Shown piece by piece: positions 44,040 to 60,866 of a stretch of DNA of 64,000 nucleotides (positions within the stretch are counted from its first letter, which is position 1; each line of letters begins with the position of its first letter). The stretch spans positions 248,001-312,000 of the forward strand of contig NZ_CP114039.1 of NCBI RefSeq assembly GCF_026965535.1. Direction: 5' to 3'. A program made the translations under genes and the position numbers. The stretch is from Corallococcus sp. NCRR. GTDB taxonomy: Bacteria; Myxococcota; Myxococcia; Myxococcales; Myxococcaceae. The notes under the pieces were generated by a model, which was given only the letters and a program-made list of their open reading frames with translations, ran no database searches and was not told the DNA's origin.

Positions 44040-44243
44040 ATGGCAACTGGTACCGTGAAGTGGTTCAACGACGCGAAGGGCTTCGGCTTCATCACCCAGG
44101 ACGGCGGCGGCGAGGACGTGTTCTGCCACCACACCGCCATCAACATGGATGGGTTCCGCACGCTGGCCGAAGGCCAGAAGGTGGAGTTCGAAGTCACCAA
44201 GGGCCCGAAGGGCCTGCAGGCGCAGAACGTCCGCGCGGCGTGA
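44040..44243 (+). CDS. Cold-shock domain protein (CspA family)
   Basis: A 67-residue OB-fold nucleic-acid chaperone from ATG 44040 (AAGGAAG at 44029-44035). RNP1 is KGFGFIT. RNP2 is DVFCHHTAI, where the usual DVFVHF has become DVFCHH, so an aromatic RNA-contacting Phe is replaced by His and a Cys is added. The start [18 protein letters not shown] is otherwise canonical. It is flanked by terminators on both sides, so it is a single-gene unit. Confidence 0.95.
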
Positions 44244-44286
44244 AGTGACGCGTCTCAGCCATTCCTCACGGACTGGTTGAAGCAAC

Positions 44287-44320
44287 AGAGGCCCGGTCCC
44301 CGAAAGGGAGCCGGGCCTCT
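44287..44320. terminator. Bidirectional terminator, cold-shock gene / dpp4
   Basis: AGAGGCCCGG (44287-44296) pairs perfectly with CCGGGCCTCT (44311-44320), with CCC/GGG inner pairing and a GAAA-containing loop. It is followed by GCCTTTGC. It lies between the stop at 44243 and the convergent stop at 44348. Confidence 0.8.
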
Positions 44321-44347
44321 GCCTTTGCAGCGTCTTCGCCGCGCGGC

Positions 44348-46572
44348 CTACTTCTTCAGGTTCTGCTCGAAGTGGGCGATGACGCGCTCGTACTGGCGCT
44401 CGGTGATGAGCGGATCCGGCACCATGTGCGTGAGGCCGGACAGGGGCAGGAGCTGGTGCGGCTTGCCCGCGCGGAAGAGCGCGTCCGACAGCTTCAGCGT
44501 GTGGAAGAAGTACACGTTGTCATCCGCGGTGCCGTGGATGAGCAGCAGCGCGCCAATGGGGCTGTCCTTCTTCGCGTACGTCAGCAGGCTGCTGACCTCG
44601 TAGGCCTGGGGCGTCTCCTCGGGCAGGCCCAGGTAGCGCTCGGTGTAGTGCGTGTCGTAGTCGCGCCAGTCCACCACCGGGGCGCCGGACACCGCGGCCT
44701 TGAAGAAGTCCGGGCGCTTCAGCGCGGCGAGCGCCGCCATGTAGCCGCCGAAGCTCCAGCCGGTGATGCCCACGCGGGAGAGGTCCATCTCCGGGACCTC
44801 CTTGGCCAGCGCCTGCACCGCTTCAATCTGGTCATCCAGGGTGACGGTGGCGAAGTCGTTCTTCACCGCGCGGTTCCACTCGGAGGTGCGCAGCGGCGTG
44901 CCGCGGCCGTCCACCTTCACCACCAGGAAGCCGTGGTCCGCGAACCACTGGCTGAGCAGGTGCGCGGCCATGGACTGGTGCACCACGGTGACGGTGGGGC
45001 CCGCGTAGACCTCCACGATGACGGGCAGCTTCTGGCCGGGCTTGAAGTCGCGCGGCTTCACCAGGGACGTCCAGAACTTCTTCGCGCCCACCTGACGGAT
45101 CTCGAAGTTCGGCGTGAAGGACGGCTCCTGCGCCACCTCCGGCAGCTCGCCCAGCTTCGTGCCGTCACCCTTGAGCACCACCGTGCGCGGCATGCTCTTG
45201 GGGCCCTGCGTGTTGAGGACGATGAGGCCCCCGTTCTTGGACACGAGCCCGTTCTCCACCGCCGGGCCGCTGGTGCCCGTGGCCACCTGCTCCGGGGCGC
45301 CGCCCATCTTCACGCGCCACAGGTGGCTCTGCGTGGGGTTCGGGTCGCCGGTGAAGAAGAGCGTCTTGTCCGCCTGCACGAAGCGCGACAGGTTGCGGTA
45401 GCCCGCGTCCGGCTTCACCACGGAGCGGTCCAGCTCACCCGTCGCCTTGCGCAGCTCCACCTCCGGGCCGCCGTTGCGCTCGGTGTACCAGAGGAAGCCG
45501 GAGCCATCCTCCAGCCACAGCGGGTAGTCCTGCGCGAGCTCCACCCAGGCGTTGTCCTTCTCCGTGAGGAGCACGCGCGTCTTGCCCGTGGCCGGGTCCA
45601 CCGCCAGCACCTGCTCCTCCGTCTGGAGCCGGTTCTGCACCACGAGGGTGAGCGGCCCGCCCTTGTCCCACTTCACGGTGGCCAGGTACGGGTACTTCTG
45701 CGCGTCCCACTGCGCCCACACCGTCTTGCCGCCGGTGACGGGCGTGACGCCCAGGCGCACCTTCGCGTTGGCCTTGCCGGGGCGGGGGTACGGGAAGATC
45801 TCCCCGCCCTTCCCGGGTGCATCACGTCCACGATGGTGAGCTTCTCCACGTCGGACGTGTCGGACTCCGTGTACGCGATGGACTTCGAATCCGGGCTCCA
45901 CCAGTAGCCGGCGAAGCGGCTCATCTCCTCCTGCGCCACGAACTCCGCCAGGCCGTGCGTCTTCTGCGCCGTCCCACCCTGCGTGACGCGCTTCTCTCGG
46001 TTGGCCGCCAGGTCCACCCGGTACACGTCGTGCTCACGGACGTACGCTACCTGCTTGCCGTCCGGCGACAGGCGCGGGTCGATGACGCCGGGGCCCGTCT
46101 TCAGCTCCGTGGACTTCCCCGTGGCGCGGTCCACCACGTAGAGCCGGCCGGAGAGGGGCACCAGCAGCTGGGTGCCGTCCTCGGAGAGGCTGTAGGAGGT
46201 GAAGCCCCGGGCGCTCACGCGCATGCGCTCGCGGCGGGCCTTCTCCTCGGGGGACAGCGTCTCTTCCGAGCCCTTGAGCAGGGCCTCCGGCGTGAGCAGC
46301 TCACGCGCCTGACCGCCGGCCACGTCGAACGCGTAGAGCATCTGCACGTTGGACGTGGGGGAGGTGCGCAGGAAGAGGACGGACTTCTCGTCCGGAGTGA
46401 TGCGCGTGCCCACCGGGCGGCCGCTCTGGAAGCGGCGCGTTTCGGCGTACTGACGCAGGAAGGTGTCCGGCTGCTTTTGCGAAGGGGCCATGGCGGAGGG
46501 TTTGCGCTCCTGGGCGATGGAGGGGGCGCTGCTCATGAGGAGAAGCGCGGCGGCGGTAAGGACCTGACGCAT
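44348..46572 (-). pseudogene. Dipeptidyl-peptidase IV (S9) with an apparent one-base frameshift
   Basis: Two minus-strand frames make one protein. The 5' frame (from ATG 46572) has signal peptide MRQVLTAAALLLMSSAPSIA and propeller sequence, including the DPP4 double-Glu motif EFVAQEEMSRFAGYWWSPD. It runs into junk after TIVDVMHPG. The 3' frame resumes at KGGEIFPYPRPGK and carries the catalytic domain: Ser in GITGWSFGGYMA, Asp in HGTADDNVYFF and His in SGLTHMVPD. Adding one G to the GGG run at 45815-45817 (plus strand) restores HPGKGGEIFPYP and a protein of about 741 residues, the normal DPP4 length. This is either a real inactivating mutation or a sequencing error. The intact product would cleave X-Pro dipeptides in the periplasm. 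Confidence 0.88.
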
Positions 46573-46691
46573 GCGTAGCTGAATCCCCGCGCGGGGCGGG
46601 GCTCCTTTCGCGGGAAGGTGCGGGCAAGCCTACACTCCGGCCACCGCGCGGCCCCCTCAACGTCCGGCCCAGGAGAGGATTCCCACCCCCA

Positions 46692-47471
46692 ATGAACCCG
46701 AAAAATGACGACGCCCTGCGCCACCTGCGCCTCGCGGGCGTGGTGCGGCTGGGCCTGGGTGGAGGCCGGGGGCCGACGGACGCCTATGTGTTCGACCCGC
46801 ATCGGCTCGCGCTGCCCGCGTGGGCGTGCGCCCTGGGCGACGCGGGTCCCCCTGCCCTGCTCGTCACGCTGGACCGGCACCTGGACATCGTCGTGCCCGA
46901 GCATCCCGCCGACATGCCGGACCGCTCCGCCGGCCTGCACGCGCTGGACGAGCACGCGAGGTGGAAGCTGGACGTGCGCAACTACGACCACATCCTCGCG
47001 GCCATGGAGGCGAACCTCGTGGGCGACGCGCTCATCATCGCGCGCACCCGGCCCCGGGGCTCCTTCGCCGGGGACGCCTACGTGGACACGCGTGGCCGCA
47101 CGCACCGCATCGCGACGGTGACGACCGTGGACCGCGCGGCGGAGGCGTACGTGCACCCCGGCCCCACGGACGCGGTGCGCGACGTGCTGGAGGCCGCGTC
47201 CGCCGTGCTGCTGGACGTGGACCTGGACTGCTTCACCAGCCTGAGCGACGCGGACCCCACCACCGTGCTCCCGTGGCCAAAGGCCGTCATCCGCGAGTTC
47301 CTCCTGCCCTCTGACTCGGAGCCCTTCTGGGACGCGGTGCTGGGCAAGGCGGTGGCGCTGACGCTCGCGCGCGAGCCGCATCACTGTGGCGGGCTGCTCG
47401 CGTCCGGGGAGCTGTTCCGCGACGTGGCGGAGGTCCTCTTCCGCGAATTGCTCCGCGTCGAACCGCCCTGA
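46692..47471 (+). CDS. UPF0489-like / arginase-fold-like protein
   Basis: A 259-residue soluble protein. LLVTLDRHLDIVVPEHP and VLLDVDLDCFTSL look like the paired acidic/histidine metal-site strands of the UPF0489 (C5orf22) family, which is distantly similar to the arginase/deacetylase fold. HHCGGLLASGELF near the C-terminus may add ligands. No enzyme activity is established for the family. ATG 46692 has AGGAGAGG about 20 nt upstream. It is convergent with the Omp85-like gene with 6 bp between stops. Confidence 0.6.
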   Translation: MNPKNDDALRHLRLAGVVRLGLGGGRGPTDAYVFDPHRLALPAWACALGDAGPPALLVTLDRHLDIVVPEHPADMPDRSAGLHALDEHARWKLDVRNYDHILAAMEANLVGDALIIARTRPRGSFAGDAYVDTRGRTHRIATVTTVDRAAEAYVHPGPTDAVRDVLEAASAVLLDVDLDCFTSLSDADPTTVLPWPKAVIREFLLPSDSEPFWDAVLGKAVALTLAREPHHCGGLLASGELFRDVAEVLFRELLRVEPP

Positions 47472-47477
47472 GCCGCG

Positions 47478-49433
47478 TCAAGGAGAGTCGAGGAAGCTGG
47501 GCCGGTAGTCCGTCACCTGCCCGCTGCTGAGCGACAGGCGGCTGCCCACGGGGGGACGGTCTCCGTTGAGCACGTAGCCGAAGTCGATGCGGAACGGGAA
47601 CACGTTGAACTGGGGGAACAGCACCCGCAGGCCCACGCCCACGGTGGTCACCATCTCCGGGCGTTCGTTGAAGGCGCTGCCCGAGTCGAGGAAGAACACG
47701 CCGCCCAGGTGCACCGTGCGCACGACGAGCGGCGCGGTGCGGTACTCCAGGTTCACCAGCAACAGCCGCCTGCCGGAGTACGCATCCACCGCCGCGCCGC
47801 GCAGGCCGTTGCTGCCGCCCAAGAGGCTCACGCGCTCGGCCAGGTCGTCGATGTTCACGTCCAGCAGGCCGCGCGCCACGAAGCGCCCCCCGAGCACGCG
47901 CGGCGACACCTGCACCAGCTCCGCGGCCCAGCGGCGGTTCGTCCAGCCCTCCTTCACGCCCGGCTGCTGGGCGCTGAACTGCTGGCGGATGGACGCGGCC
48001 GCGGACGCGGTGGTGAGCGCGTCCCCCCAGTGCACGCGGTAGCGGAGGGACAGGCCCCCTTCCGCGAAGTGCGCGGCGGAGGGGAACACCGGCGGCGCGT
48101 AGCGCAGCGTGGCCAGCACGGAGTGCCCCAGCTGGAAGTCCTCCGACAGCGTGTATGAGTCCACGTTGCGAAGCACGTCGTAGCGGGCCTCGAAGGCGCT
48201 CAAGGAGAAGTTCGCGTACCCCGCGTCCTCCGCGCGCGGCAGGTAGTTGCGGCGGAACCAGTCCTCTTGCGCGCCGGTGAGCTGGGACGCCACCGGCGCG
48301 GCGTAGGCGTAGTGGTAGGCCCCCGCGCCCATGCCCACGTTCCACTTGTAGCGCTGGCCGTAGGAGCGCGTGTACGTGGCGCCCGCGGCCACCTCGCGCG
48401 CGTTGTAGATGTACGGCACGGGCTCGCCGTCCGGGAACGGGAGCTGCCAGATGTCCGCGCCCCGGAACTGCCGCGCGGTCTCCATGTTCCACGCCACGGA
48501 CGTGCTCAGGCTCCACGGCGTGGCCAGCGAATACAGCGGCCGGCTGACGACCAGGCTCCCGCGCGAGCCCTCCGCCTTGCCCGTGTCGCGATTGATCAGC
48601 ACCGCGGCGGACTCCGTCAGCGACCAGCGGCTGCCGAGCACACGCCGGTCCGTGTAGCTCTGGCCGAAGCTGAACGTGTCCAGGCGCATGATGAAGTCCA
48701 GCGCCACCTTCTTGCCGCGCCCCAGGAAGTTCTGCTCCGTGCCCTGCAAGCGCAGGTAGAGCAGCAGCGAGCCCACGGCGGAGAACTCGTTGTTGAGCCG
48801 CAGCGACCACAGGTCCTTGGTCACCAGCAGCAGCGCGACCTTGTCCGGGGCGCTGCCCTTCACCGGCACCGCGCGCACGACGGAGAACAGGCCCAGCTTG
48901 CGCAGGTTGCGCACCGACTCCGCGACGAGCGCCTCCGAGTACGGCTGCCCCGGCGTAATCAACACCTCCTGACGCACGACCTCATCGCGGGTGCGGACGT
49001 GGAAGATGTTGAGCAGCGATGGATACGGATCCATCGGCGCGACGACCTCTTCCGCGGTGACGAGCACCTCCTCCAGCATCTTGCCCTGGGGCTCAGGCTC
49101 CACCTGACGCTCGACCTCGCCCAGGCCCCAGGCGATGAGCGCCTCCTCGTAGTTCTTCGTGCGCTCCGCGTCCGAGGTGGCCACGGGCGCCTGCGTGCCC
49201 TCCGGCCCCACCGGGACCTGCTCCGAGCGGGGCGGTGCCGCGACCTCCGTGTTCGACACGCCCGACGGCTCGACGTCCGGCGAGCGCACCGGCGCATCCG
49301 GCGCATCCGGCGGCGTGACGTCCTGGGGTTTGCCGGCGCCTTCAGGCTCGGGCGGAGTGGGCGTATCGGAAGGCGACGCCTGTCCCGTCGCGACGAGCAC
49401 GGTCAGCAGCAGGACGGACAGTGGGAGCGGCAC
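47478..49433 (-). CDS. Omp85/BamA-superfamily outer-membrane protein
   Basis: A 651-residue protein with signal peptide MPLPLSVLLLTVLVATGQA. A long Pro/acidic linker (about 20-95) is followed by one POTRA-like domain (about 135-215, DEVVRQEVLITPGQPYSEAL then RNLRKLGLFSVVRAVPV). A 16-strand-type barrel spans about 225-651. SLLGGSNGLRGAAVDAY and LLLVNLEYRTAPLV match the conserved Omp85 L6-loop and strand regions, with RG in place of VRGY. A single POTRA suggests a specialised translocator or assembly factor rather than BamA itself. It lies 42 bp downstream of the cobalamin-binding-like gene on the same strand. Confidence 0.82.
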   Translation of the reverse strand: MPLPLSVLLLTVLVATGQASPSDTPTPPEPEGAGKPQDVTPPDAPDAPVRSPDVEPSGVSNTEVAAPPRSEQVPVGPEGTQAPVATSDAERTKNYEEALIAWGLGEVERQVEPEPQGKMLEEVLVTAEEVVAPMDPYPSLLNIFHVRTRDEVVRQEVLITPGQPYSEALVAESVRNLRKLGLFSVVRAVPVKGSAPDKVALLLVTKDLWSLRLNNEFSAVGSLLLYLRLQGTEQNFLGRGKKVALDFIMRLDTFSFGQSYTDRRVLGSRWSLTESAAVLINRDTGKAEGSRGSLVVSRPLYSLATPWSLSTSVAWNMETARQFRGADIWQLPFPDGEPVPYIYNAREVAAGATYTRSYGQRYKWNVGMGAGAYHYAYAAPVASQLTGAQEDWFRRNYLPRAEDAGYANFSLSAFEARYDVLRNVDSYTLSEDFQLGHSVLATLRYAPPVFPSAAHFAEGGLSLRYRVHWGDALTTASAAASIRQQFSAQQPGVKEGWTNRRWAAELVQVSPRVLGGRFVARGLLDVNIDDLAERVSLLGGSNGLRGAAVDAYSGRRLLLVNLEYRTAPLVVRTVHLGGVFFLDSGSAFNERPEMVTTVGVGLRVLFPQFNVFPFRIDFGYVLNGDRPPVGSRLSLSSGQVTDYRPSFLDSP

Positions 49434-49475
49434 GCGCGCATCCTGTCATGCGCTGGGCCTGCCGCCAGCCTCCCC

Positions 49476-50345
49476 TCACTCCAGCGCGGTGCGCAGGTCG
49501 CCCGGCCGGGCCATGGGCAGCTTCTCCCCCTTCGCGATGGCCGCCACGATGCGCGCCAGCTGATCCACCCCGTCCGACAGCGCCGCCGGCCCCGGCTGGA
49601 GGATGTAGGAACTCCTCACTTCGTAGAGCTGGTCGTCCACCACCGCCCGCACGCCGGACCAACCCGGCCGGGAGGCAATCTTCTCCCGCTTCGCCTTGCG
49701 CCCGCACCAGCTGGCGATGACGCCCTCCGGGTCGCGCCGGGCCACCTCCTCCGGGTCGAAGATGCGGCCCTTCGCCCCCTGCGACGCGCGCGACTCCTGG
49801 CACACGTCCACCCCACCCACCACCTCCACCAGCTCCGAACACCAGCGGATGCCGGAGATGAGCGGCTCGTGCCACTCCTCGAAGAAGATGCGCGGCCGCT
49901 TCGGCAGCGACTGCGCCGCGTCCGAGTGGCGCTCCAGGTTCTTCTCCAGCTCCACCGCCAGCGCCTCCGCTGCTTCCGCGCGCCCCACCAGCGCCCCGGT
50001 GAGCCGCACCGCCTGCAATATCTCCGCGAGCGAGCGCTGGTTGAACAGGTACACGGGCACCCCGCGCTTGCACAGCTCCCGGCCGATGTCCGCCTGCAGG
50101 TCGCTGAAGCCCAGCACCAGGTCCGGCTTCAGCTCCAATATCCGCTCGAAGTTCGCGTCCAGGAACGAGCTGACCCGCGGCTTCTTGCGCGCCTCCGGAG
50201 GCCGCACCGTGAACCCCGACACGCCCACCACGAGGTCCCCCGCGCCAATGCGGTAGAGCACCTCCGTCGTCTCCTCCGTCAGGCACACCACCCGCCGCGG
50301 ATAGCGCGGCGCGGACGACAACAGCGCGGACAGCAGGGCATTCAT
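49476..50345 (-). CDS. BtuF-like cobalamin/metal-chelate binding protein without signal peptide
   Basis: A 289-residue protein from ATG 50345. The two-lobed periplasmic-binding fold (COG0614) is visible: VVCLTEETTEVLYRIGAGDL, ILELKPDLVLGFSDLQADI, FFEEWHEPLISG, CSELVEVVGGVDVCQESR and RSSYILQPGPAALSDGVDQL. EEWHEPL is a hallmark of the cobalamin-binding subgroup. No signal peptide or lipobox is visible (MNALLSALLSSAPRYPRR), so it is predicted cytoplasmic, unlike transport BtuF. No BtuCD genes adjoin. It is divergent from the Ser/Thr kinase-TonB operon. Confidence 0.8.
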   Translation of the reverse strand: MNALLSALLSSAPRYPRRVVCLTEETTEVLYRIGAGDLVVGVSGFTVRPPEARKKPRVSSFLDANFERILELKPDLVLGFSDLQADIGRELCKRGVPVYLFNQRSLAEILQAVRLTGALVGRAEAAEALAVELEKNLERHSDAAQSLPKRPRIFFEEWHEPLISGIRWCSELVEVVGGVDVCQESRASQGAKGRIFDPEEVARRDPEGVIASWCGRKAKREKIASRPGWSGVRAVVDDQLYEVRSSYILQPGPAALSDGVDQLARIVAAIAKGEKLPMARPGDLRTALE

Positions 50346-50541
50346 GCGGGAGACCCTAACCCGCCCCAGCCCCCGGCACCGGGGATGACGCGACGCACCA
50401 GCGGCCTCGGACTGTGCGGCAACGGACGCTGATTTCCCCGTTTTCCAATCACCACCGGGGACGCGATGCGCACGGGAGGTGTGGGAGTGCGAGCGCGCGG
50501 CGCGGGCCGGAAACTCGGCGCCGGGGCGTGGCGATGATAGC

Positions 50542-50581
50542 GGCACGTCTCTTGGGCGGTTTTCAAAGGCGGTGCTAGCAT
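50542..50581 (+). promoter_or_regulatory. Candidate promoter for the kinase-TonB operon
   Basis: TTGGGC (50552-50557) and TAGCAT (50576-50581) with 18-bp spacing give a weak sigma-70-like pair. The overlapping GGCACGTCTCTTGG (50542-50555) resembles a sigma-54 -24/-12 element, but the invariant -12 GC is GG. Either would start about 45 nt upstream of ATG 50635. Confidence 0.25.
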
Positions 50582-50634
50582 CCGCCGGGTCCGAAACGAC
50601 GTATGCGGTCCTTCTCTTCGCCTTGGGGGAACAC

Positions 50635-52245
50635 ATGATCGAAAGCGACGCCCGCCGCCAGGGCGCGCCCGCCGACGTGCCGGATCCCCTGCTCGGGCGG
50701 ATCCTCAACGAGCGCTTCCGCATCCTGGAGACGCTTGGCGCCGGAGGCATGGGCCGCGTCTACAAGGCGATGCAGGCCCCGTTGGACCGGCTGGTGGCGC
50801 TCAAGGTCCTCAACCCGCAGTACAGCGGCGAGGGCAAGGACCCGGGCTTCCAGAAGCGCTTCTTCCTGGAGGCCAGCGTCACCGCGAAGCTGCGCCATCC
50901 GAACACCGTCACCGTCATCGACTACGGCAAGACGGAAGACGGCATCTACTACATCGCCATGGAGTACCTGGAGGGGCTGACGCTGTCGCAGCTGCTCACC
51001 CAGGAAGGGCCGCTGCCGTGGGAGCGCGCGCTCGCCATCGGGCAGCAGGTGGCCCGCTCGCTGCGCGAGGCGCACAAGGTCGGCCTCATCCACCGCGACC
51101 TGAAGCCCGCCAACGTGATGATCCTCAACCAGGAGGCGGATCACGACGTGGTGAAGGTGCTGGACTTCGGCCTGGTGAAGTCCTTCACCGGTGACGCCGC
51201 CATGAAGGAGGACACCACGCTCACGCAGGCGGGCGTCATCCTGGGCTCGCCGCAGTACATGGCGCCGGAGCAGGCGCGCAACATCGCGGATCCGCGCAGC
51301 GACGTGTACAGCCTGGGCGTGGTGCTCTACCAGGTGCTGATGGGCCGGCCGCCCTTCCAGGCGGCGCAGAGCATCGACGTCATCGTCAAGCACATCAACG
51401 ACCCGCCGCCTCCCTTCCACACCGTGTGGCCGGACCACAACGTGCCCGCGGAGGTGGAGGCGCTGGTGATGAAGTGCCTGGCCAAGCGCCCCGTGGACCG
51501 CTACGCGTCCATGGACGCGGTGCTCCAGGGCATGCGCACCGCCGCGTCCGCGTCCGGCGTCAGCGGCGTCTTCGCCACGCGCACCGGCCTCAACGCGGTG
51601 GGCTCCGGCCCCCACAGCGGTCCGCACAGCGGCATCCACACCGGCCCCCACCAGGCGCTGGGCTCCGGCCCCACGCCCGCGCCCAACACCATGGCGCTGG
51701 ACATCTCCGTGGACGAGGCCGGCGGCCTCGCGGAGAAGAAGTCCAGGAAGGGCCTGGGCCTCGCGCTGTTCGGCGCGTCCCTGGTCGTGGGGCTGGGCGT
51801 GGCGGGCATCCTCGTGCTGAAAGGGGCCCAGAAGCCCCCGGTGGAGCCTGCCGTGTCCGCCCCCGTGGCGCGCGCGCCCGTCGCGCCGCCGCCCGCCCGC
51901 GAGCCCGCCACGCAGACCGCCGCCGTCACGCCGCCGCCCGCCGCCCCCCTGCCCGTGCGCTTCGACCTGGACAGTGAGCCCCAGGGCGCGGAGATCATGC
52001 TCGACGGCAAGGTGCGTGGCACGACGCCCCTGGTCATCAACCACACCCCTGATGGCCCGGGCCTCGCGTCCGTGGAGGTCTCGTTCGCCATGGACGGCTA
52101 CCAGACCGTCAGCAAGAAGTACGCGGGCGAGCCGGGCTCCACCGTCAGCGTCTCCATCAAGCTTCCGCGCATCAAGAAGCAACCGGGACCGAAGCCTTCC
52201 CCCAAGGCGCCGGCCTCCTCGTACAAGGACGATCCGTACCAGTGA
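50635..52245 (+). CDS. Membrane Ser/Thr protein kinase with PEGA domain
   Basis: A 536-residue kinase from ATG 50635 (GGGGGA 5 nt upstream). The kinase domain is about 25-295: P-loop LGAGGMGRVY, catalytic Lys in VALKVL, HRDLKPANVM, DFGLVK and MAPEQAR. A Gly/His-rich juxtamembrane linker (GPHSGPHSGIHTGPH, about 325-340) could bind metal. A single TM (about 383-402, LFGASLVVGLGVAGILVL) is followed by a Pro/Ala stretch and a periplasmic PEGA domain (about 443-515, DSEPQGAEIMLDGKVRGTTP). All catalytic residues are present. The stop overlaps the next start as GTGA. Confidence 0.93.
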   Translation: MIESDARRQGAPADVPDPLLGRILNERFRILETLGAGGMGRVYKAMQAPLDRLVALKVLNPQYSGEGKDPGFQKRFFLEASVTAKLRHPNTVTVIDYGKTEDGIYYIAMEYLEGLTLSQLLTQEGPLPWERALAIGQQVARSLREAHKVGLIHRDLKPANVMILNQEADHDVVKVLDFGLVKSFTGDAAMKEDTTLTQAGVILGSPQYMAPEQARNIADPRSDVYSLGVVLYQVLMGRPPFQAAQSIDVIVKHINDPPPPFHTVWPDHNVPAEVEALVMKCLAKRPVDRYASMDAVLQGMRTAASASGVSGVFATRTGLNAVGSGPHSGPHSGIHTGPHQALGSGPTPAPNTMALDISVDEAGGLAEKKSRKGLGLALFGASLVVGLGVAGILVLKGAQKPPVEPAVSAPVARAPVAPPPAREPATQTAAVTPPPAAPLPVRFDLDSEPQGAEIMLDGKVRGTTPLVINHTPDGPGLASVEVSFAMDGYQTVSKKYAGEPGSTVSVSIKLPRIKKQPGPKPSPKAPASSYKDDPYQ

Positions 52246-54800
52246 ATCCCCCGACAGCCTTCCGACGTGGGGCGCTCCTCGCGCTGTGTCTTTGCGCGAC
52301 CGAGGCCCTGGCGGACGCGCGCCTCGAAGCGCGCCGCCACTTCCGCAATGGCATGAGCCTCATCGAGCAGAAGAACTTCGATGAAGGCATCGCCGAGTTG
52401 GAAGCGGCCTATGCCATCAAGCCGCACCCCAGCGTCCTCTACAACATCGCCCGGGCGTACCAGGACGCGGGCCGGCTGGACGAAGCGCTGGACGCCTACA
52501 AGCGCTACCTCGCCTCCAACCCGCCGGACGCCGCCAACGTGCAGGCCCAGGTGACGCGCCTGGAGTCCACGCAGAAGGCGGCCCAGGCGGAGGCGCCCGC
52601 CCCCGGCACCGAGACCGGCACGACGGGCACCACCGGCCTGCCCATGCCGCCGCCGCCCGCCACGAGCATCCAGGCCCAGCAGCAGATGGCCTCGCTCATG
52701 GAGCGGCTGGAGAAGGCCGTCGCCCGCGCGGAGTCCATGTCCGCCCAGCCCCAGGGCGCGCAGCAGCCCGCGGCCACGCCCGGCCCCACCACCGTCAGCT
52801 CCAGCGGCAGCGCCGAGTCCGGCGACACCTCCGGCGACCAGGGCCTGGTGCCGTATGAAGAGCGCGTCGTGACGGCGAGCCGCCGCGCCCAGTCCTCGCT
52901 GGAGGCGCCCAACGCCACCACCGTCATCACCGCGGAGGACATCCGCCTGTCGGGCGCCACCACGCTGCCGGAGCTGCTGCGCCGCGTGCCCGGCGCGGAC
53001 GTGATGGCCATGGGCGTGGGCAGCGCCAACGTCAGCCTGCGCGGCTTCAACCAGCGCCTGGCCAACAAGGTGCTGGTGCTGGTGGACGGCCGCACGGAGT
53101 ACCAGGACTTCCTCGGCCTCACGGTGTGGGCGGGGCTGCCCATCGGCCTGGAGGAAATCGACCGCATCGAGGTCATCCGCGGTCCGGGCAGCGCGCTGTA
53201 CGGCGCCAACGCGATGCTGGGCGTCATCAACATCATCACCCAGGCCCCCGGCACCGGCCGCCGCGCGCGCTTCGGCGCCATGGCGGGCGGCGGCAACACC
53301 GTGCAGGGCTCCTTCGTCAGCCACGGCCAGAACGGGGGCCTGCGCTACCGCGCGTCCGCCGCCTACCAGCAGCAGGACAAGTGGAGCCGCGATTACGAGT
53401 CCGGCCGTCCGGACTTCGCGCTTCAGGGGCCCGCGGATCCGGACCTGGGGCAGCGCGGGGCCCGCGCCAACCTGTCCACCGTCTACACGTTCCAGGAGGG
53501 CCAGGCGATTGGCGTCTCCGGCGGCGTGCACCGCTACCTGACGGAGATCTACCCGCTGGGCCTCTTGCGCAACTACTACATCGACGGCCTGGGCGCGTAC
53601 GCCAAGGCGGACGTGGAGTTGGGCGCGGTGAAGCTCAAGGCGTTCTGGAACCACCTGTCCGGCGACGCGGGCCCCCAGTACGAGGCCATCGGCCAGCGCT
53701 CGCTGGGCATCCAGGTCGCCTCCAACGTCTTCAACGGTGAAGCGCTGTACGCGCGCGGCTTCGAACTGGCCGGTGAGCACCAGGTGAACATCGGCGTGGA
53801 GGGCCGCCTGAAGCGCGTGGCCTTCACGTACCTGGACGACCTGCGCGAGGAGTTCCACGCCGCGGCCTTCGTCCAGGACGACTGGCGCATCGTGCAGCCG
53901 TTGCGGCTCATCGTCAGCTACCGCGTGGACCGCCACCCGCTGCTCGACAAGGGCAACCCGGGCATCGCGCAGTCGCCGCGTCTGTCCGCGGTGTTCCAGC
54001 CCATTGAAGGGCACGCCTTCCGCGCGTCCGTGGCCACCGCCTTCCGCGAGCCCACGTTCCTGGAGAGCTACACCCGGCTGCCCGTGCCCGTGCCGGGCGT
54101 CAACGGCGTGAGCCTGCTGACCACCGGCAACCGGACGCTGCGCCCCGAGCGCCTCAACGCGCTGGAGCTGGGCTGGCGCGGTGAGTCCCCGCGCCTGGGT
54201 CTGGACTGGGACGTGGCCCTCTACCAGAACACGGTGAAGGACCTCATCGCCCTGTCACCCGTGCAGTCGCTGCCCGCCGGTGAGTCCTTCGACAGCGGCA
54301 CCGGCAGCTACCTGCTGGGCCGCTCCATGTTCACCAACGAGGCCGCCATCTACACCGCGCGCGGCGTGGAGGCGGGCATCAACGTGTCCCCCATCGACGG
54401 CCTGGGCGTGAAGGCGAGCGCGGCGTACCAGCACATCAGCTCCGACCTGCCGGACGAGGGCCAGTGCGGCACGTGCAGCCAGACGCCGGCCTTCCGGCTC
54501 TTCGGCGGCGTCACCTACCGCACGCGCACGGACCTGGAGTTCGGCATCGAAGCGGCGTTCACCACCTCCACCACCTGGGTGGAGCGCGAGCCCTCCGCGT
54601 CCGACCCGACGCGCGTGGACCTCATCGCCAACAACCTCCCCGCGTACACCGTCGTCAACGCCCGCGTGGGCTACACCGTGGTGAAGGACTTCGTCTCCGT
54701 GGCGCTGCAGGGCAGCCAGCTCGGTGGCGGCCACGCGGAGCACCCCTTCGGCAACCGCATCGAGCGGCGCGTGTTCGCCAACCTCACGGTGACCCCATGA
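52242..54800 (+). CDS. TPR-TonB-dependent receptor fusion
   Basis: An 852-residue outer-membrane protein. The signal peptide is followed by two TPR repeats (about 28-100, RHFRNGMSLIEQKNFDEGIA and YNIARAYQDAGRLDEALDAY). A coiled-coil/Pro linker (about 105-200) leads to the plug domain (about 205-325): EERVVTASRRAQSSLEAPNA, VLVLVDGRTEYQD and IEVIRGPGSALYGANAMLGV. The rest is a 22-strand-type barrel. TPR fused ahead of a TonB receptor is unusual and suggests a periplasmic partner. The substrate is unknown. GTG 52242 overlaps the kinase stop, and the stop overlaps the lipoprotein start (ATGA). Confidence 0.9.
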   Translation: MNPPTAFRRGALLALCLCATEALADARLEARRHFRNGMSLIEQKNFDEGIAELEAAYAIKPHPSVLYNIARAYQDAGRLDEALDAYKRYLASNPPDAANVQAQVTRLESTQKAAQAEAPAPGTETGTTGTTGLPMPPPPATSIQAQQQMASLMERLEKAVARAESMSAQPQGAQQPAATPGPTTVSSSGSAESGDTSGDQGLVPYEERVVTASRRAQSSLEAPNATTVITAEDIRLSGATTLPELLRRVPGADVMAMGVGSANVSLRGFNQRLANKVLVLVDGRTEYQDFLGLTVWAGLPIGLEEIDRIEVIRGPGSALYGANAMLGVINIITQAPGTGRRARFGAMAGGGNTVQGSFVSHGQNGGLRYRASAAYQQQDKWSRDYESGRPDFALQGPADPDLGQRGARANLSTVYTFQEGQAIGVSGGVHRYLTEIYPLGLLRNYYIDGLGAYAKADVELGAVKLKAFWNHLSGDAGPQYEAIGQRSLGIQVASNVFNGEALYARGFELAGEHQVNIGVEGRLKRVAFTYLDDLREEFHAAAFVQDDWRIVQPLRLIVSYRVDRHPLLDKGNPGIAQSPRLSAVFQPIEGHAFRASVATAFREPTFLESYTRLPVPVPGVNGVSLLTTGNRTLRPERLNALELGWRGESPRLGLDWDVALYQNTVKDLIALSPVQSLPAGESFDSGTGSYLLGRSMFTNEAAIYTARGVEAGINVSPIDGLGVKASAAYQHISSDLPDEGQCGTCSQTPAFRLFGGVTYRTRTDLEFGIEAAFTTSTTWVEREPSASDPTRVDLIANNLPAYTVVNARVGYTVVKDFVSVALQGSQLGGGHAEHPFGNRIERRVFANLTVTP

Positions 54801-55969
54801 AGCGCGCCCTTCCCTTCCTCGCGTTCACGCTCGCGTCGCTCCTGTCGGGCGGCTGTGATGCCCCGGACGTGGTGCCCACGGCGGACGGCCGCCAGCACAC
54901 GCGCTCGGCCCGCATCGAGGGCAACCTGGTGGTGCAGTCGCGCGCCCGCGGCAACGCCATCGTGTTCCTCTACGACGCGGCCAACCCGCCGCCGCCCGCG
55001 GGCTCCGGCCGCCCGCTGGCCTTCACCGTCATCACCGCGGCGGAGCTGTTCGGCGCGTCCCTGGGGGACAACTCCACGGGCCCGTTCACCGCGCCGTTCT
55101 CGCTGAGCCTCGTGGAGCCGGGCCGCTATCTCCTGCGCGGCTTCATCGACGCGGACACCTGCCGCAGCGGCACGCAGCCCTGCCACGTGTCTGACTTCAA
55201 CCCCTGGTACGGCGTCACCTCCGAGCCCAACGCGGGCGACGTGGGCGGCGGCGCGGTGGACCCCGCCACCAGCGCCACGCGCATCCTGGAAATCACCACG
55301 GACGCGGACGGCTGGCCCCAGCCGCTCACCGGCGTCTCCGTGTCCTTCGCGGACTCGGCCACCGTGCCCTTCGACCGGCCGGCGTTCCAGACCGCGGACG
55401 CGCGCGAGTTCAACACCGCGACCACGCCCCTGAAGACGCTCACGCTCACGCCGCAGACGCTCACCGGCGCGGTGGACCAGCGTCCTCCGGGCTTCTGGGT
55501 GCAGCTGGGGGACGCCAACAAGGACGGCATCCCGGACGACGCCAACGCGGACGGCAAGCCGGACGTCGTCTGGCCGCGCGTCATCGTGCGCAAGCTGGCG
55601 GAGGGCGTGACGGGCTACGCGGACGACACCGACCACAACCGCGACGGCCAGCCGGACGCGGTGGTGCTGGCGGCCGGGCTGGTGCCCGACCCGCTGCTCG
55701 CCGCGCTGCTCGATGAACAGGGGAAGCCCCGCCCGCAGCCCGTCTTCGTTCCGCAGCTGGTGGTGGCCATCCGCGCCCAGGCGCTGGACGCGCGCGACCC
55801 CGCCGCGCCCACGCCGCTCACGGCCGTGCCCCCGGGCCGCTACAGCGTCATCCTGCTGCAGTCCACGGGGCAGACGTGGCGGCTGCCCAACGAGCTGGAC
55901 CCGGCGCTCGCGGAGGCCGTGGGGCTGCCGGGCGTGCAGTCCCAGGCCTTCGTGCTGGAGGTCCGCTGA
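54797..55969 (+). CDS. Lipoprotein with calcium-binding-like Asp repeats
   Basis: A 390-residue lipoprotein. The signal is MKRALPFLAFTLASLLSGGC, with lipobox Cys20. I do not recognise the family. Two Asp-rich loops, DANKDGIPDDANADGKPD and DDTDHNRDGQPD (about 240-300), resemble thrombospondin-type-3/dockerin calcium loops. Two cysteines in TCRSGTQPCHV may form a disulfide. It is translationally coupled to the TonB receptor by ATGA, so it is likely a surface or periplasmic partner of that receptor, much as SusD-type lipoproteins pair with SusC, though it shows no SusD similarity. Confidence 0.82.
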   Translation: MKRALPFLAFTLASLLSGGCDAPDVVPTADGRQHTRSARIEGNLVVQSRARGNAIVFLYDAANPPPPAGSGRPLAFTVITAAELFGASLGDNSTGPFTAPFSLSLVEPGRYLLRGFIDADTCRSGTQPCHVSDFNPWYGVTSEPNAGDVGGGAVDPATSATRILEITTDADGWPQPLTGVSVSFADSATVPFDRPAFQTADAREFNTATTPLKTLTLTPQTLTGAVDQRPPGFWVQLGDANKDGIPDDANADGKPDVVWPRVIVRKLAEGVTGYADDTDHNRDGQPDAVVLAAGLVPDPLLAALLDEQGKPRPQPVFVPQLVVAIRAQALDARDPAAPTPLTAVPPGRYSVILLQSTGQTWRLPNELDPALAEAVGLPGVQSQAFVLEVR

Positions 55970-56002
55970 GGTCGTTTTCGCCCTCCCCCCATCGCGGTGC
56001 GT

Positions 56003-56032
56003 GGCCCTGGGTTGCTTTGACTTCGCAGGGCC
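56003..56032 (+). terminator. Candidate terminator of the kinase-TonB-lipoprotein operon
   Basis: GGCCCTG (56003-56009) pairs with CAGGGCC (56026-56032), loop 16 nt, about 30 nt after the lipoprotein stop. There is only a short pyrimidine tail. Confidence 0.45.
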
Positions 56033-56090
56033 CTTCCGCGACCATGGGCGGAGCCGCTGGAGGCGTTTCCTCCCCGAGGTTTTGATTCCG

Positions 56091-56573
56091 ATGAAGGCCG
56101 GTCCTCTCTCCGTCCCCGAAAACGCGCCCGCCCGTCCCACGGGGAGCACGCCCACGGTCCGTCCGGCCGGGGGGACCGGTCCGCAGCGCGTGTTGCTGGT
56201 GGACGACAGCCGCTCCATCCGCACGCTGCTGAAGATCTACCTCATGGCCCGCAGCTTCGAGTTCCTGGAGGCGGAGTCCGCCGAGGAGGGCCTCAAGGTC
56301 GCCGAGGCGGAGCACGTGGACCTCATCCTCACCGACTTCCACATGGACGGGATGAACGGCGCGGACTTCGCCGGGCAGATCCGCGCCAGCAGCAACGCCA
56401 GGCTGTCCAAGGTCCCCATCCTGATGATGACGGGCGACCCGAACGTGGCGGAGGTCCGCGCGCTGGGTCAGAAGGCCGGCATCAGCGCCTTCGTGCGCAA
56501 GCCGGTGAGCTGCGCGCAGTTGATGACGCTGGTGGACACCATCCTCCCGCTGCCCCGCGCCGCCGCGAAGTAG
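56091..56573 (+). CDS. Response regulator with a 30-residue N-terminal extension
   Basis: A 160-residue protein from ATG 56091 (GAGGT at 56076-56080). The first 30 residues are Pro/Gly-rich (ENAPARPTGSTPTVRPAGG). The receiver follows with LLVDDSRSIRTLLKIYLM, phospho-acceptor Asp in LILTDFHMDGMNG, Thr in ILMMTGDP and Lys in FVRKPVS. It resembles the first gene of the chemosensory operon (38106-38483) more than generic CheYs, so the two may be paralogues. No kinase adjoins. It is convergent with msrQ, 6 bp between stops. Confidence 0.88.
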   Translation: MKAGPLSVPENAPARPTGSTPTVRPAGGTGPQRVLLVDDSRSIRTLLKIYLMARSFEFLEAESAEEGLKVAEAEHVDLILTDFHMDGMNGADFAGQIRASSNARLSKVPILMMTGDPNVAEVRALGQKAGISAFVRKPVSCAQLMTLVDTILPLPRAAAK

Positions 56574-56579
56574 TCCGCT

Positions 56580-57197
56580 TCAGGCCGGGCGCTCCCGCGC
56601 GAGCGCCCGCCGCTTTCGCAGCGCCTCGCCCACCCGCACCGCGAAGAGCAGCGCCAGGACGGCCCCGTAGAGCACAGGCTCCGTGACGTCCTTCTTCACC
56701 CGCCACACGAAGTGCACCACGCCCAGCACCGCGGCCACGTAGGCCAGCCGGTGCAGGCGCTGCCACTTGGGGAAGCCCAGCCTCCGCACCCACGTGTTGG
56801 TGGACGTGACGGCCAGCGGCACCAGCAGCATCAGCGCGGTGAAGCCCACGGTGATGAAGGGCCGCGTGAAGACGTCCTTCCCCATGGCGCGCACGTCCAG
56901 GCCCTGATCCAACACGGCGTAGGTGAGGAAGTGCGCCGCCGCGTAGGTGAAGGCCAGGAGGCCCAGCGTGCGGCGGATGCGCGCGGGCCACGTCCAGCCC
57001 GTCACCAGCCGCACCGGCGTGCACGCCAGGGAGCCCACCAGCACCGCCAGCGCGAAGAGGCCCGTCTGGTTGAGGGCGAACTCGATGCCGTTGGCCCCCA
57101 GCTGTCCCTGCGCCCCCTGCATCGCGAGGAGCAGCAGCGGAGAGAGCCCTCCGACGGCGATGGCGGGGTTCAGCCAGGGGAGCTTGGAGGAGGCCAT
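56580..57197 (-). CDS. msrQ: MsrQ, haem b membrane subunit of the methionine sulfoxide reductase system
   Basis: A 205-residue membrane protein of the ferric-reductase-like family with about six helices. Haem-ligand histidines are visible in YAAAHFLTYAVLD and WQRLHRLAYVAAVLGVVHFVW. It passes electrons from the quinone pool to periplasmic MsrP. The start is ATG 57197, 3 bp after the msrP stop, so the pair is one operon. Length is normal for the family. Confidence 0.93.
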   Translation of the reverse strand: MASSKLPWLNPAIAVGGLSPLLLLAMQGAQGQLGANGIEFALNQTGLFALAVLVGSLACTPVRLVTGWTWPARIRRTLGLLAFTYAAAHFLTYAVLDQGLDVRAMGKDVFTRPFITVGFTALMLLVPLAVTSTNTWVRRLGFPKWQRLHRLAYVAAVLGVVHFVWRVKKDVTEPVLYGAVLALLFAVRVGEALRKRRALARERPA

Positions 57198-57200
57198 GGT

Positions 57201-58190
57201 TCAGAAGTCCCGCTTCAGGTCCATGCCGCGGTAGAGGCCGGCCACGGCGTCCGCGTAACCGTTGAAGGGCAGCGTGGGCCGGCGCGACGTCTCACCGATG
57301 CGGCGCTCCGTGGCCTGGCTCCAGCGCGGGTGGTCCACCGCCGGGTTCACGTTGGCGTAGAAGCCGTATTCGCGCCGGTTGGCGATGTTCCACGTCGTGG
57401 GCGGCTGCTCGCGCGTGAGCGTGATGCGGACAATGGATTTGATGCCCTTGAAGCCGTACTTCCACGGCACCACCAGCCGCAGCGGGGCGCCGTTCTGCGC
57501 GGGCAATTGCTTGCCGTACAGGCCCGTGGCCAGCAGCGTCAGCGGGTGCATGGCTTCATCCATGCGCAGGCCCTCCACGTAGGGCCAGTTCAGCACCGGG
57601 CTCTTCTGGCCGGGCAGCTGCTCCGGGTCCTCCAGCGTGGTGAAGGACACGTACTTCGCGAAGGACGTGGGCTGCACGCGGTCCAAGAGCTTGCCCAGGG
57701 GCAGGCCCAGCCACGGAATCACCATGGACCAGGCCTCCACGCACCGCATCCGGTAGACGCGCTCCTCCAGCGGGAAGGCGGAGATGAGCTGATCCACGTC
57801 CACGGTCCACGGCTTGTGCACCTCCCCGTCGATGACGACCGTCCACGGCCGCGTCTTCAGCAGGTGCGCGCGGCGGGCCGGGTCGTTCTTGTCCAGGCCC
57901 AGCTCGTAGAAGTTGTTGTAGGTGGTGACGTCCTCGTAGGGCGTGCGCGGCTCGTCCGTGCTGAAGAGGCCCTGCGCGGGCGCCACCGGCTGGTCCACCG
58001 TGCCCGCGTCCGGCACGAAGCCGTCCATGGGCCGGGTGCGCTTCATGCCCAGCAGGTACAGCCCTCCGCCCACCACCGCGGCGGTGCCCGCGAACAGGCC
58101 CGCGTTCTTGAGGAACTCGCGGCGGCGCAGGTAGAGCTTCTCGGGCGTGACTTCGGAGCCAGGGGGCTCGGGAGGGAGCTTGTCGCGCAT
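57201..58190 (-). CDS. msrP: MsrP, periplasmic molybdopterin protein-methionine-sulfoxide reductase
   Basis: A 329-residue sulfite-oxidase-fold enzyme. The Tat signal [20 protein letters not shown] (about 22-41) explains export of a folded molybdenum protein. The Mo-ligand Cys is in [15 protein letters not shown]. It repairs oxidised methionine in envelope proteins, with electrons from MsrQ. The gene order msrP-msrQ is conserved across proteobacteria. Upstream, 34 bp away, is the crtW-like gene on the same strand. Confidence 0.94.
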
Positions 58191-58224
58191 GACTCCCTCT
58201 ATAACGCCCCAGCGCCTTTTCCGG

Positions 58225-58950
58225 TTACCGCCGGGCGTCCTTCACCCGCCACAGCCGCCACCAGGGCGTGCCGGGGGACTGATGGTGCTCCCAGTGGTAG
58301 CCGAAGAAGAAGCACGACAGCAGGGCCCACAGGTGGTTGCGCGGCAGGGAGCGCGCGTGGTGCGGCGCCATGCCCTCCGCCTCCGGGCGCCGGTGCGGCA
58401 GGTACGTGCCGAAGTAGAACAGCTGCACGGTGGCCAGCACCGACGGCAGCACCCAGAAGGCCAGGATGCGCGCCTGGGGGACGCCCAGCCACAGCAGCAC
58501 GTTGAACTTCAGCGCCATGACCGCGATCTGCGGCCACGTGGTGTAGCGGACCATGAAGGCCCCGAACCACGGCCAGAACGACAGGCCCCGCGCCGCGAAG
58601 TCCGGGTCGTGCTCACCGGTGGGGTCCGCGTGGTGCGCGCGGTGGTTCACCACCAGCCGGCGGTAGGACAGCCCCGCGAAGAGGAAGCAGGCCAGCCCCC
58701 CCACCGCGGCGTTCACCCGGCGGTCCAGGGACACCGTCCCATGCATGGCGTCATGCCCGGTGATGAAGAGGCCGGTGGACAGCCACATCTGCAGCAGGAC
58801 ATGCAGCCAGGGGAGCGGCGAGGCCCACGGCAGCCCGGGCCCCGCCAGCATCCACGCCAGGTGCCCGCCCCACGCGCCCACCACCGCGAGCGCGAGCACG
58901 ACGCCCCATGGGTCGGGAGGGGCGGCACGGATGGAGGGCTCGGGCGCCAT
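58225..58950 (-). CDS. CrtW-type beta-carotene ketolase-like membrane di-iron enzyme
   Basis: A 241-residue protein from ATG 58950 (AAGGA close upstream); ATG 58968 or a start at 58986 are alternatives. It would be labelled a fatty-acid desaturase by family, but the histidine boxes and their spacing match CrtW ketolases: [43 protein letters not shown] and [18 protein letters not shown]. CrtW adds a 4-keto group to beta-ionone-type rings. Myxobacterial carotenoids of the myxobactone type carry such a keto group, so that role fits. It stands apart from any other carotenoid gene and sits before msrPQ (oxidative-stress repair). Confidence 0.82.
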
Positions 58951-59027
58951 GGCTTCCTTACTGGCCATGCCCCGCCCCCCGCGCACGAAGAAACGCGCGC
59001 GGGAGGGGCGGAAGCGCGGCCGGGACG

Positions 59028-60734
59028 CTACTTCGCGGCGGGGGCACCGAAGTCCTTCACCAGCGAGTCGGCGGTGACGTAGCGCGGCTCGATGTCCACC
59101 GGCACGTTCTTCAGCCGCTCCAGCACCTTCTGCACGGAGGGGCGCACCACGCCCTGCTTCGCGAGCAGCGCCTCCGCGGCGGCGCGGTCACCCTGGGCCT
59201 GGAGCGTCATGAGCTGGTTCGTCAGCGACGTGACGGCGGCATGCATCTTGTCCGGCACGACTTCGAACGTGTCGTCCGCGTTCACCTTCACCGCGCCGGT
59301 GTCCAGGAAGTGGTTGAGCTGGAGCGCGATGCCCTTGCCGTGCGCCTCGTCGATGCCGAAGCGGATGGAGCGGAACGCGGACGCGAGGAACGTCGTGTAC
59401 ATGGTCCGCTGCAGGTCCTTGTCCAGCGTGCCCTTGTCCACCAGCCGCTGGAGCGCCCACAGGCCGGAGATGTCCGCCTTGGCCTCTTCAATCGCGCTGG
59501 AGGCCGCCTGCAGCGCCTGACGCACCGTCGTCTGCTTCCCGGCCACGGTGACGTTGTGGGGCCCCAGGCCGTGCATCAGCTCGTGCATGAGGATGTGCGT
59601 GAAGAAGGCGTCGAAGGACACGTCCTTGCGGTCCTTCGCGGGCAGCGCCACCTTCGCGATGGGCACCAGCACCCGCTGGAACTTGGCCTCCTGGATGTTC
59701 TTGAGCATCACGCGCTTGGTGCCCTTCTCCGCCGCCACGCGCTCGTCGTTGGGCAGGTTGAAGGCCGCCGTCTGCACGCCCCGGTTGCCGTCACCGGACG
59801 AATAGATGCTGTTGATGACGCGGATGGGGGCCAGGGCGCCCAGCTTCGGGTTGCGCAGACCCTGGTCAATCGGGAGGTTGTTCTCCAGCTCCTGGAGCTC
59901 CGCGCTGAACTTCGCCAGCTTCTGCGTCTCCGCGTCGTCGCGCACGCCGATGAAGGCCTCGAACGCGGCCTTGTAGTTGAACCAGCCGTCCTCGTAGACC
60001 TCATAGGGCCCGATGGTGGGCTCCACGCTCGCGTCCAGCTCCATCCACGCGACCTCGCTCGCGTAGTAGTCGTTGGACAGGAACGCCGCCGCGCGCGCCT
60101 CCAGGAAGCGCTTCAGCGTGGGCTGCTGGGTGAGCGCCGCGGCCTCACGCAAGAGCTGCGCGGCCATGCCCAGCTCGCCCTGGTACTCGACGCTGTAGGG
60201 CACGCTCACGAACTTGCCGTCCGGCCCCTTGCGCAGCGTGGTGAAGAAGCCCGTGGCCGCGTGCTGCTGCGCCTCCGGCAGGCTCTTCACCCACGCCTCC
60301 ACCTCCGCCTTGGTGGCGCCGGCGGGGTAGAAGTTCCCCTCGTCCGGCTTGGCCGGTACGCCAGGGATGAACGGCTTCGCCTCGTCCAGGCGCGACCAGG
60401 GGCCCTTGTTGAGCAGGAACGCGTGCAGCCGCTCCTTGCCCAGGGGCGTGGTGTCCTTCACCAGGTCCAGCAGCAGGGTCTGGTTGCCCGCCCACGCCTG
60501 GCTCAGGAAGAGGGGGTCCATGATGCGGGCGGCCTGGAGGATCTTGGCCAGGGCGCGCTTCTCCGCGTCCGGCAGCTTGGACACGTCCACCTTGACGTCC
60601 ACGGGGGCGAAGCGCGCGGTCATCCGCTTCAGCGTCGGGGCGTCCGGCAGGCGGGCGGGGGCTTCCTGGGCGGGGGCGGCGCCCGACAGGAGCAGCGCGC
60701 CGAGCAGGGGCAGCAGGGTTCTGGACTTGGGCAT
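59028..60734 (-). CDS. M49 (dipeptidyl-peptidase III-like) zinc metallopeptidase, secreted
   Basis: A 568-residue protein from ATG 60734 (AGGGAAGGGGG just upstream). The signal peptide is MPKSRTLLPLLGALLLSGAAPAQ. The zinc site is ILMHELMHGLGPHN (HExxH form rather than the HExxxH of eukaryotic DPP III) with the second motif SAIEEAKADISGLW supplying the Glu ligand. SNDYYASEVAWMELDA resembles the bacterial DPP III/NUDIX-associated branch. It is probably a periplasmic or secreted peptidase acting on peptides. It is divergent from htpG (132-bp gap). Confidence 0.85.
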   Translation of the reverse strand: MPKSRTLLPLLGALLLSGAAPAQEAPARLPDAPTLKRMTARFAPVDVKVDVSKLPDAEKRALAKILQAARIMDPLFLSQAWAGNQTLLLDLVKDTTPLGKERLHAFLLNKGPWSRLDEAKPFIPGVPAKPDEGNFYPAGATKAEVEAWVKSLPEAQQHAATGFFTTLRKGPDGKFVSVPYSVEYQGELGMAAQLLREAAALTQQPTLKRFLEARAAAFLSNDYYASEVAWMELDASVEPTIGPYEVYEDGWFNYKAAFEAFIGVRDDAETQKLAKFSAELQELENNLPIDQGLRNPKLGALAPIRVINSIYSSGDGNRGVQTAAFNLPNDERVAAEKGTKRVMLKNIQEAKFQRVLVPIAKVALPAKDRKDVSFDAFFTHILMHELMHGLGPHNVTVAGKQTTVRQALQAASSAIEEAKADISGLWALQRLVDKGTLDKDLQRTMYTTFLASAFRSIRFGIDEAHGKGIALQLNHFLDTGAVKVNADDTFEVVPDKMHAAVTSLTNQLMTLQAQGDRAAAEALLAKQGVVRPSVQKVLERLKNVPVDIEPRYVTADSLVKDFGAPAAK

Positions 60735-60866
60735 GCCCCCTTCCCTACCCCAACCCGCCCCCTCCTCCCAGCGACGGATGTGGGTGGATTCCCTCTTCTC
60801 GACAAGTCCGCCGGCATGGTTATGGGGAAGGGCATTGGCGCGTTCCGTCAGCGCCCGGAGGCCTTC

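Follow-up and report, generated by a model that had tools for sequence, protein, structure and literature searches.

The window, a 64,000-nucleotide stretch of the genome of Corallococcus sp. NCRR, carries a unit of three overlapping genes encoding a membrane Ser/Thr kinase, a TonB-dependent receptor (TBDT) with N-terminal TPRs, and a lipoprotein (Table 1). Beyond its periplasmic PEGA domain the kinase ends in a near-invariant tail, [YF][KR][DE][DN]PY, which is a new finding. We read the unit, with a probability of roughly 0.6, as a trans-envelope TBDT unit in which an inner-membrane Hanks kinase takes the place of an anti-sigma factor, the tail makes contact in the periplasm, most likely with the TPR block of the TBDT.

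Table 1. Features of the kinase–TBDT–lipoprotein unit and its immediate neighbours (window coordinates; residues are those of the respective protein).
Feature	Position	Strand	Basis
Peripla_BP_2 (BtuF-like) gene, divergent, loosely linked neighbour outside the unit	49476..50453	-	Pfam, relatives
Membrane Ser/Thr (Hanks-type) kinase with PEGA domain	50635..52245	+	Pfam Pkinase and PEGA; invariant catalytic residues
Kinase catalytic domain, residues 29-295	50719..51519	+	Pfam
Single transmembrane segment, residues 376-394	51760..51816	+	Hydropathy; KKSRK ahead
Periplasmic PEGA domain, residues 446-512	51970..52170	+	Pfam
Periplasmic tail YKDDPY, residues 530-535	52222..52239	+	Column identity, pattern search, reading of 99 sites
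GTGA stop/start overlap, kinase/TBDT	52242..52245	+	Sequence; start-to-stop offsets in relatives
TBDT with N-terminal TPRs	52242..54800	+	Frame and Pfam
Periplasmic TPR block, residues 25-108	52314..52565	+	Pfam; AlphaFold2 helices; conservation
Predicted linker helix, residues 143-164	52668..52733	+	Low-confidence model; conserved residues
TonB-box-like EERVVTAS, residues 206-213	52857..52880	+	Conserved in alignments A3/A4
Plug domain	52902..53225	+	Pfam
Beta-barrel	53337..54707	+	Pfam
ATGA overlap, TBDT/lipoprotein	54797..54800	+	Sequence; offsets in relatives
Lipoprotein, beta-rich model, Asp-rich loops	54797..55969	+	Frame, alignment, predicted structure
First DxNxDGxPDD loop, D239-D248	55511..55540	+	Alignment, 29 rows
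Second DxNxDGxPD loop, to D287	55625..55657	+	Alignment, 29 rows
Single-domain response regulator, downstream, outside the unit	56091..56573	+	Pfam

The stop-to-start overlaps reported in a preliminary description of this DNA are exact when the coordinates are re-read, with 4 nt shared at both joints (kinase ATG at 50635 and TGA at 52243-52245; TBDT GTG at 52242 and stop at 54800; lipoprotein ATG at 54797 and stop at 55969), and its assignments of the three genes are borne out, by Pfam for the first two and by a lipobox for the third. Among loci L001-L058 the lipoprotein ATG lies at -3 relative to the TBDT stop wherever a value was obtained, so this overlap is not a product of chance. For most named loci the TBDT starts at -3 or 0 relative to the kinase stop; L054 has +5, L055 has no assigned start, and distant families range from -16 to +37.

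The kinase matches the Pfam families Pkinase (E 1.6e-47) and PEGA (E 1.2e-06), and has a predicted Hanks-type signature (K57, HRDLKPAN at 153-160 and DFG at 177-179). The catalytic residues K57, E79, D155, N160, D177 and G179 are invariant in 21 aligned kinase rows. By hydropathy, the protein has a sole hydrophobic span, preceded by KKSRK, and therefore the kinase domain is placed in the cytoplasm and the PEGA domain and tail in the periplasm, an envelope topology that had been proposed correctly for the PEGA domain. PASTA repeats are absent among the Pfam matches at E <= 1, with PEGA found instead, and the best NCBIfam model, NF033483, scores 316.7 bits, under its cut-off of 450. Mean column identity is 0.94 in the tail, 0.78 in the kinase domain, 0.53 in PEGA and 0.42 in the linker ahead of the tail. 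The PEGA domain is only moderately conserved, and in L077 it goes undetected by Pfam at E 0.01.

A DNA pattern for the tail, TWYAARGANRAYCCNTAY, was searched in 195 Myxococcota genomes with the reversed pattern as control, and gave 105 matches in 101 genomes, the control giving 14. Ninety-two of these lie 2.5-3.1 kb upstream of a lipoprotein gene on the same strand, and in seven more (G020, G021, G147, G068, G086, G089 and G139) the kinase is the same one, its contig being split or lacking the lipoprotein. The other six are unrelated chance matches inside other frames (G142, G115, second matches in G061, G062 and G064, and G167, where the frame has 20 codons). All 99 genuine sites, one per genome, were read. 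At every one the tail lies no more than one residue from the stop codon (49 end at the Tyr, 50 with one extra residue) and is followed on the same strand by a TPR match, about 1.3 kb past the tail in G068; a kinase-domain match precedes it at 90, the contigs of the other nine starting within the kinase gene. The tail of G030, YRDDPY, is missed by the DNA pattern. Among 50 loci the tail closes the kinase frame in 47, and in L055, L064 and L154 it is found at the correct place in another frame, which we read as frameshifts in drafts.

The tail codons might be conserved as DNA, serving the overlapping TBDT gene as ribosome-binding site (AAGGA). In the window AAGGA ends 12 nt ahead of the GTG, a rather long spacing that would still be possible, but the tail is retained where the TBDT starts 13-37 nt past the stop (L066, L067 and L069) and where the codons read AAAGA. 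Its codons vary synonymously, and the Pro and final Tyr are invariant despite differing codons, making this explanation most improbable. In its own genome, a looser form of the pattern gave four matches, one of them in a 12-codon frame, and only in this kinase does the motif form the C-terminus of a gene product. The other PEGA frames examined there close without it (a rough longest-frame look at 27 matches, with four frames left open).

The lipoprotein has relatives in 104 of the 195 genomes, some of them weak or located elsewhere. Seventy-three loci were read (28 named, 20 distant, 4 and 20 further, plus that of the window), with four contigs counted twice (L041/L172, L051/L183, L056/L178 and L058/L182). 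A TBDT/TPR match is found in 67, and none in L060, L070, L071, L073, L075 and L079, of which L070, L071 and L075 are short contigs. Of the 67 TBDT loci, 50 have a same-strand kinase immediately upstream and seven more show its contig-cut C-terminus (in L063 the tail only); nine end before the kinase position, and L078 holds an unrelated TBDT. Among loci of sufficient length the kinase is directly upstream in 57 of 58, all 57 with the tail, and the set spans seven Myxococcota families (f1, f2, f7, f8, f10, f17 and f26). Myxobacterial kinases are numerous, so a single kinase–TBDT neighbour pair would mean little; co-occurrence on this scale shows one conserved unit, and the condition that would have refuted the preliminary description, absence of the grouping from related genomes, turned out in its favour. 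Of 23 genomes whose lipoprotein is absent or weak, 18 are also without a TPR-TBDT at E 1e-20, including all eight tested of family f3. In G030, G147, G020 and G021 kinase and TPR are retained together, and the TBDT of G072 is a different one. One locus (L048, BNCN01000001.1) comes from a record for Comamonas sp. KCTC 72670 with a Myxococcus-like operon, its TBDT being 71% identical to that of the window, and the organism label looks wrong.

The TBDT matches TPR_19 (E 2.9e-08), Plug (PF07715, E 5.3e-23) and the barrel family PF00593 (E 1.2e-34); NCBIfam models NF053590 and TIGR01779 match below cut-off, and the best PDB sequence match is the colicin I receptor, CirA (E 6e-26). The N-terminal TPRs of the preliminary description are present, and can be refined to two repeats plus a capping helix in the AlphaFold2 model, which has a pLDDT of 76-91 over the TPR block (residues 31 to 110) and a mean of 49.5 overall, being good only in the TPR helices. 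In the predicted linker helix, L152, R155, L156, E157 and other residues are invariant in alignment A4. We take EERVVTAS to be the TonB box, by comparison with the motif of BtuB/CirA. The TBDT of L062 has two TPR stretches. An STN domain is absent from the 20 Pfam families matched at E <= 1, the N-terminal matches being to TPR models instead.

Identity to the window protein across 11 distant rows is 58-75% in the plug, 49-63% in the TPR block and 30-44% in the barrel. Conservation of the TPR block is intermediate, above that of the barrel and below that of the plug, and the lower variation of the TPR beside a varying barrel suggests a conserved periplasmic partner. Outside the cytoplasm, strong conservation in the kinase is confined to the tail, and ahead of the plug no part of the TBDT is conserved better than the TPR block. 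The simplest guess is therefore a contact between the two, to which we give about even odds. In EEVD–TPR pairs, a C-terminal peptide is clamped in the TPR groove by its free carboxylate; a strict clamp of this kind is unlikely here, because about half of the tails carry an extra residue. In G021 (L156:6592-8889), directly after a tailed kinase comes a TPR frame of 226 residues, ending at the TonB-box region. Barrel and lipoprotein are both missing, and the remnant is either a decayed unit or a TPR partner existing on its own.

Related combinations occur elsewhere in the same genome, which has 20 plug matches (one below cut-off). By eye, TPRs precede the plug in two of them, the TBDT of the window and L090/L136. 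The latter (L136:7126-12326, C1 about 2577.1-2582.3 kb) is a TBDT with TPR and PEGA fused before the plug, beside which lies a divergent lipoprotein gene whose product contains a CarboxypepD_reg domain and also a DxDxDG stretch. A second operon (L138:6365-10962, C1 about 9208.4-9213.0 kb) encodes, on one strand, a kinase with a C-terminal transmembrane segment, a TM-TPR-PEGA-PEGA protein and a TBDT, and is contiguous in eight of 15 chosen genomes of the window's family, the other seven giving no match at E 1e-20. The 20 fetched TBDT stretches contain two more kinase matches, about 5 kb (L136) and about 2 kb (L137) from the TBDT.

These data bear on whether the kinase acts on its own, as a stress or envelope kinase that senses the wall or periplasm through PEGA and tail and shares an uptake operon for common regulation. 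PEGA domains are common in this genome (27 matches), as kinases are in myxobacteria at large, and the contact between kinase and TBDT is a proposed one. We nevertheless consider a lone sensor rather unlikely: the TPR follows the kinase at all 99 tail sites, is better conserved than the barrel, persists with the kinase in G021 where the barrel is gone, and is combined with PEGA at two more TBDT loci of the genome.

The third gene product carries a lipobox (LSGGC20) together with DxNxDGxPD loops. Across 29 rows, D239 and D247 of the first loop are invariant and D243, G244, P246 and D248 nearly so; in the second loop D279, D283, G284 and P286 are invariant and D287 nearly so. These Asp-rich loops look like calcium loops, and are putative calcium sites. 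No Pfam family matches the lipoprotein above cut-off (best FG-GAP_3, E 3.5e-04, 21.5 bits vs 26.9), SusD is absent among its Pfam matches, and the best sequence match to a solved structure has an E of 0.55. The predicted structure is beta-rich (mean pLDDT 69), with beta-sandwich domains weakly like Bacteroidetes surface lipoproteins and fimbrial anchors (best Z 7.2). A fold identity from Foldseek/VIA was not adopted, the matches reflecting a common beta-sandwich likeness. Among 70 of 71 lipoproteins with a recognised lipobox, some from loci on the same contig, the +2 residue is E in 41, D in 19 and another residue in 10. In M. xanthus, 8 of 12 inner-membrane lipoproteins are reported to have Lys at +2, and those of the outer membrane to share no conserved residue (PMC3222651); for this reason the +2 residue does not fix the location of the lipoprotein.

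The lipoprotein is a single unit of about 390-419 residues in L001-L058, and several distant genomes have two or more units per frame. In distant families (L062, L064, L066 and L067) it is enlarged to about 960-1400 residues with several unit copies. No lipoprotein match follows the TBDT in G030 among ORFs of at least 250 aa, it is missing from the G021 remnant, and relatives without a nearby TBDT match occur in L060, L073 and L079. The idea that it is an equal third member is not upheld: the core consists of the kinase and the TPR-TBDT, and we treat the lipoprotein as an accessory that has in some genomes been lost or expanded. Some of these observations also count against a tail that binds peptidoglycan, the lipoprotein or another envelope protein instead of the TPR. 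Such a partner would be in keeping with a lipoprotein encoded two genes on, and the docking of the tail on the TPR is itself a proposal, but G030 retains tail and TPR with no lipoprotein match and the number of lipoprotein units ranges from one to several, so that we regard it as unlikely.

The divergent BtuF-like gene is found near the operon in many named loci and apparently lacks a signal peptide. Vitamin B12 uptake, which this neighbour and a BtuB-like TBDT might indicate, was not adopted as a function, the BtuF-like gene being loosely linked and, by eye, without a signal peptide. No RNA family reached gathering scores in window positions 44000-64000, and therefore no cobalamin riboswitch is present there. 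The response regulator was dropped as a unit member, as it occurs at only some loci within the window's family. A promoter scan of 50400-56400 found none. The same region has six terminator-like sites (1.9 expected), of which one (56001-56015, +) lies between the lipoprotein and response regulator genes, two (+, near 52266) just within the TBDT gene, and three on the opposite strand. By Pfam, sigma and anti-sigma genes are absent among the 15 proteins scanned (45.7-63.9 kb), and TonB/ExbBD families among the neighbouring proteins scanned.

TonB-dependent transducers of the FecA/FecR/FecI and FpvA type combine an N-terminal STN domain, an anti-sigma partner and a sigma factor. The present unit resembles them in having a TBDT with an N-terminal periplasmic domain before the TonB box, and a co-encoded inner-membrane protein whose C-terminal part is periplasmic and whose regulatory part is cytoplasmic. 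It differs in having TPR rather than STN, a Ser/Thr kinase rather than an anti-sigma factor, and no sigma factor among the scanned neighbours. The departure from the usual sigma/anti-sigma TonB receptors had been anticipated in the preliminary description. With neither an STN domain nor a sigma/anti-sigma gene found in the proteins scanned, the unit is filed as a variant of TBDT trans-envelope units outside the STN/anti-sigma family. Like PknB-type kinases, its kinase has an N-terminal Hanks domain, one transmembrane segment and an extracytoplasmic domain, but PEGA and the conserved tail replace PASTA, and it is tied to an outer-membrane receptor. The TBDT shares plug and barrel with BtuB and CirA, and differs from them in the TPR and linker (about 180 residues) ahead of the TonB box. 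In SusC/SusD-type pairs a lipoprotein gene also follows the TBDT gene; here, SusD, whose fold is helical and TPR-like, is not found by Pfam, and the lipoprotein model (mean pLDDT 69) suggests beta-sandwich domains. Kinase, TPR, PEGA and TBDT are each known, and neither their stable combination nor a description of a kinase–TBDT operon or a TPR-TBDT was found in the open-licence literature, as represented by titles and abstract openings.

Around the observed gene order, its conservation, the tail, the restriction of the tail to this kinase among the pattern matches, and the hydropathy-based topology, we infer tail docking, a ligand, kinase activation and kinase targets as follows. The TBDT would import or bind a ligand at the outer membrane, with its N-terminal TPR block, before the TonB box, hanging into the periplasm. 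The kinase, crossing the inner membrane once, would reach through the periplasm by way of PEGA, a flexible linker and the tail, and the tail would dock on the TBDT, most likely in the TPR block. The state of the receptor (ligand bound, TonB pulling) may then alter the clustering or freedom of the kinase, and cytoplasmic Ser/Thr phosphorylation would report on the receptor, in line with the suggestion in the preliminary description that ligand sensing could feed the kinase. The lipoprotein may assist the TBDT, perhaps in binding the ligand or in gating, although we hold this role to be doubtful. A signal running from the receptor to the inner membrane is expected from the layout, which is that of a TonB-dependent transducer with TPR for STN and a kinase for the anti-sigma factor, and this direction is probably correct. 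The same gene data would also fit a reverse signal in which the kinase gates uptake, for example by tethering the periplasmic domain of the TBDT or by phosphorylating TonB/ExbB partners, and a tail bound to the TPR before the TonB box could block or aid access of TonB. The periplasm contains no ATP, so the TBDT cannot be a phosphorylation substrate; with no TonB/ExbBD family encoded among the scanned neighbours either, gating by the kinase appears quite improbable.

Returning to the kinase as reporter of the receptor, the endpoints of TonB-dependent signalling are, to our knowledge, sigma factors or two-component systems. Myxococcota may add Ser/Thr phosphorylation as an output of TBDTs, through a peptide at the kinase end that docks on the receptor TPR, with kinase, TPR, PEGA and TBDT modules shuffled within a single genome into three layouts (a TPR-PEGA-TBDT fusion and two in which a kinase is adjacent); this wider proposal is tentative, and we place it somewhat short of even odds. 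The six-residue tail and the TPR block are small targets, making the proposal testable by small deletions. If correct, it would supply a rule for finding such units, namely TPR and PEGA modules beside TBDTs, and many orphan myxobacterial kinases would gain an outer-membrane input through receptors coupled to Ser/Thr kinases. The conserved pairing of an inner-membrane kinase with an energy-driven outer-membrane receptor suggests an unusual route for signals across the two-membrane cell wall.
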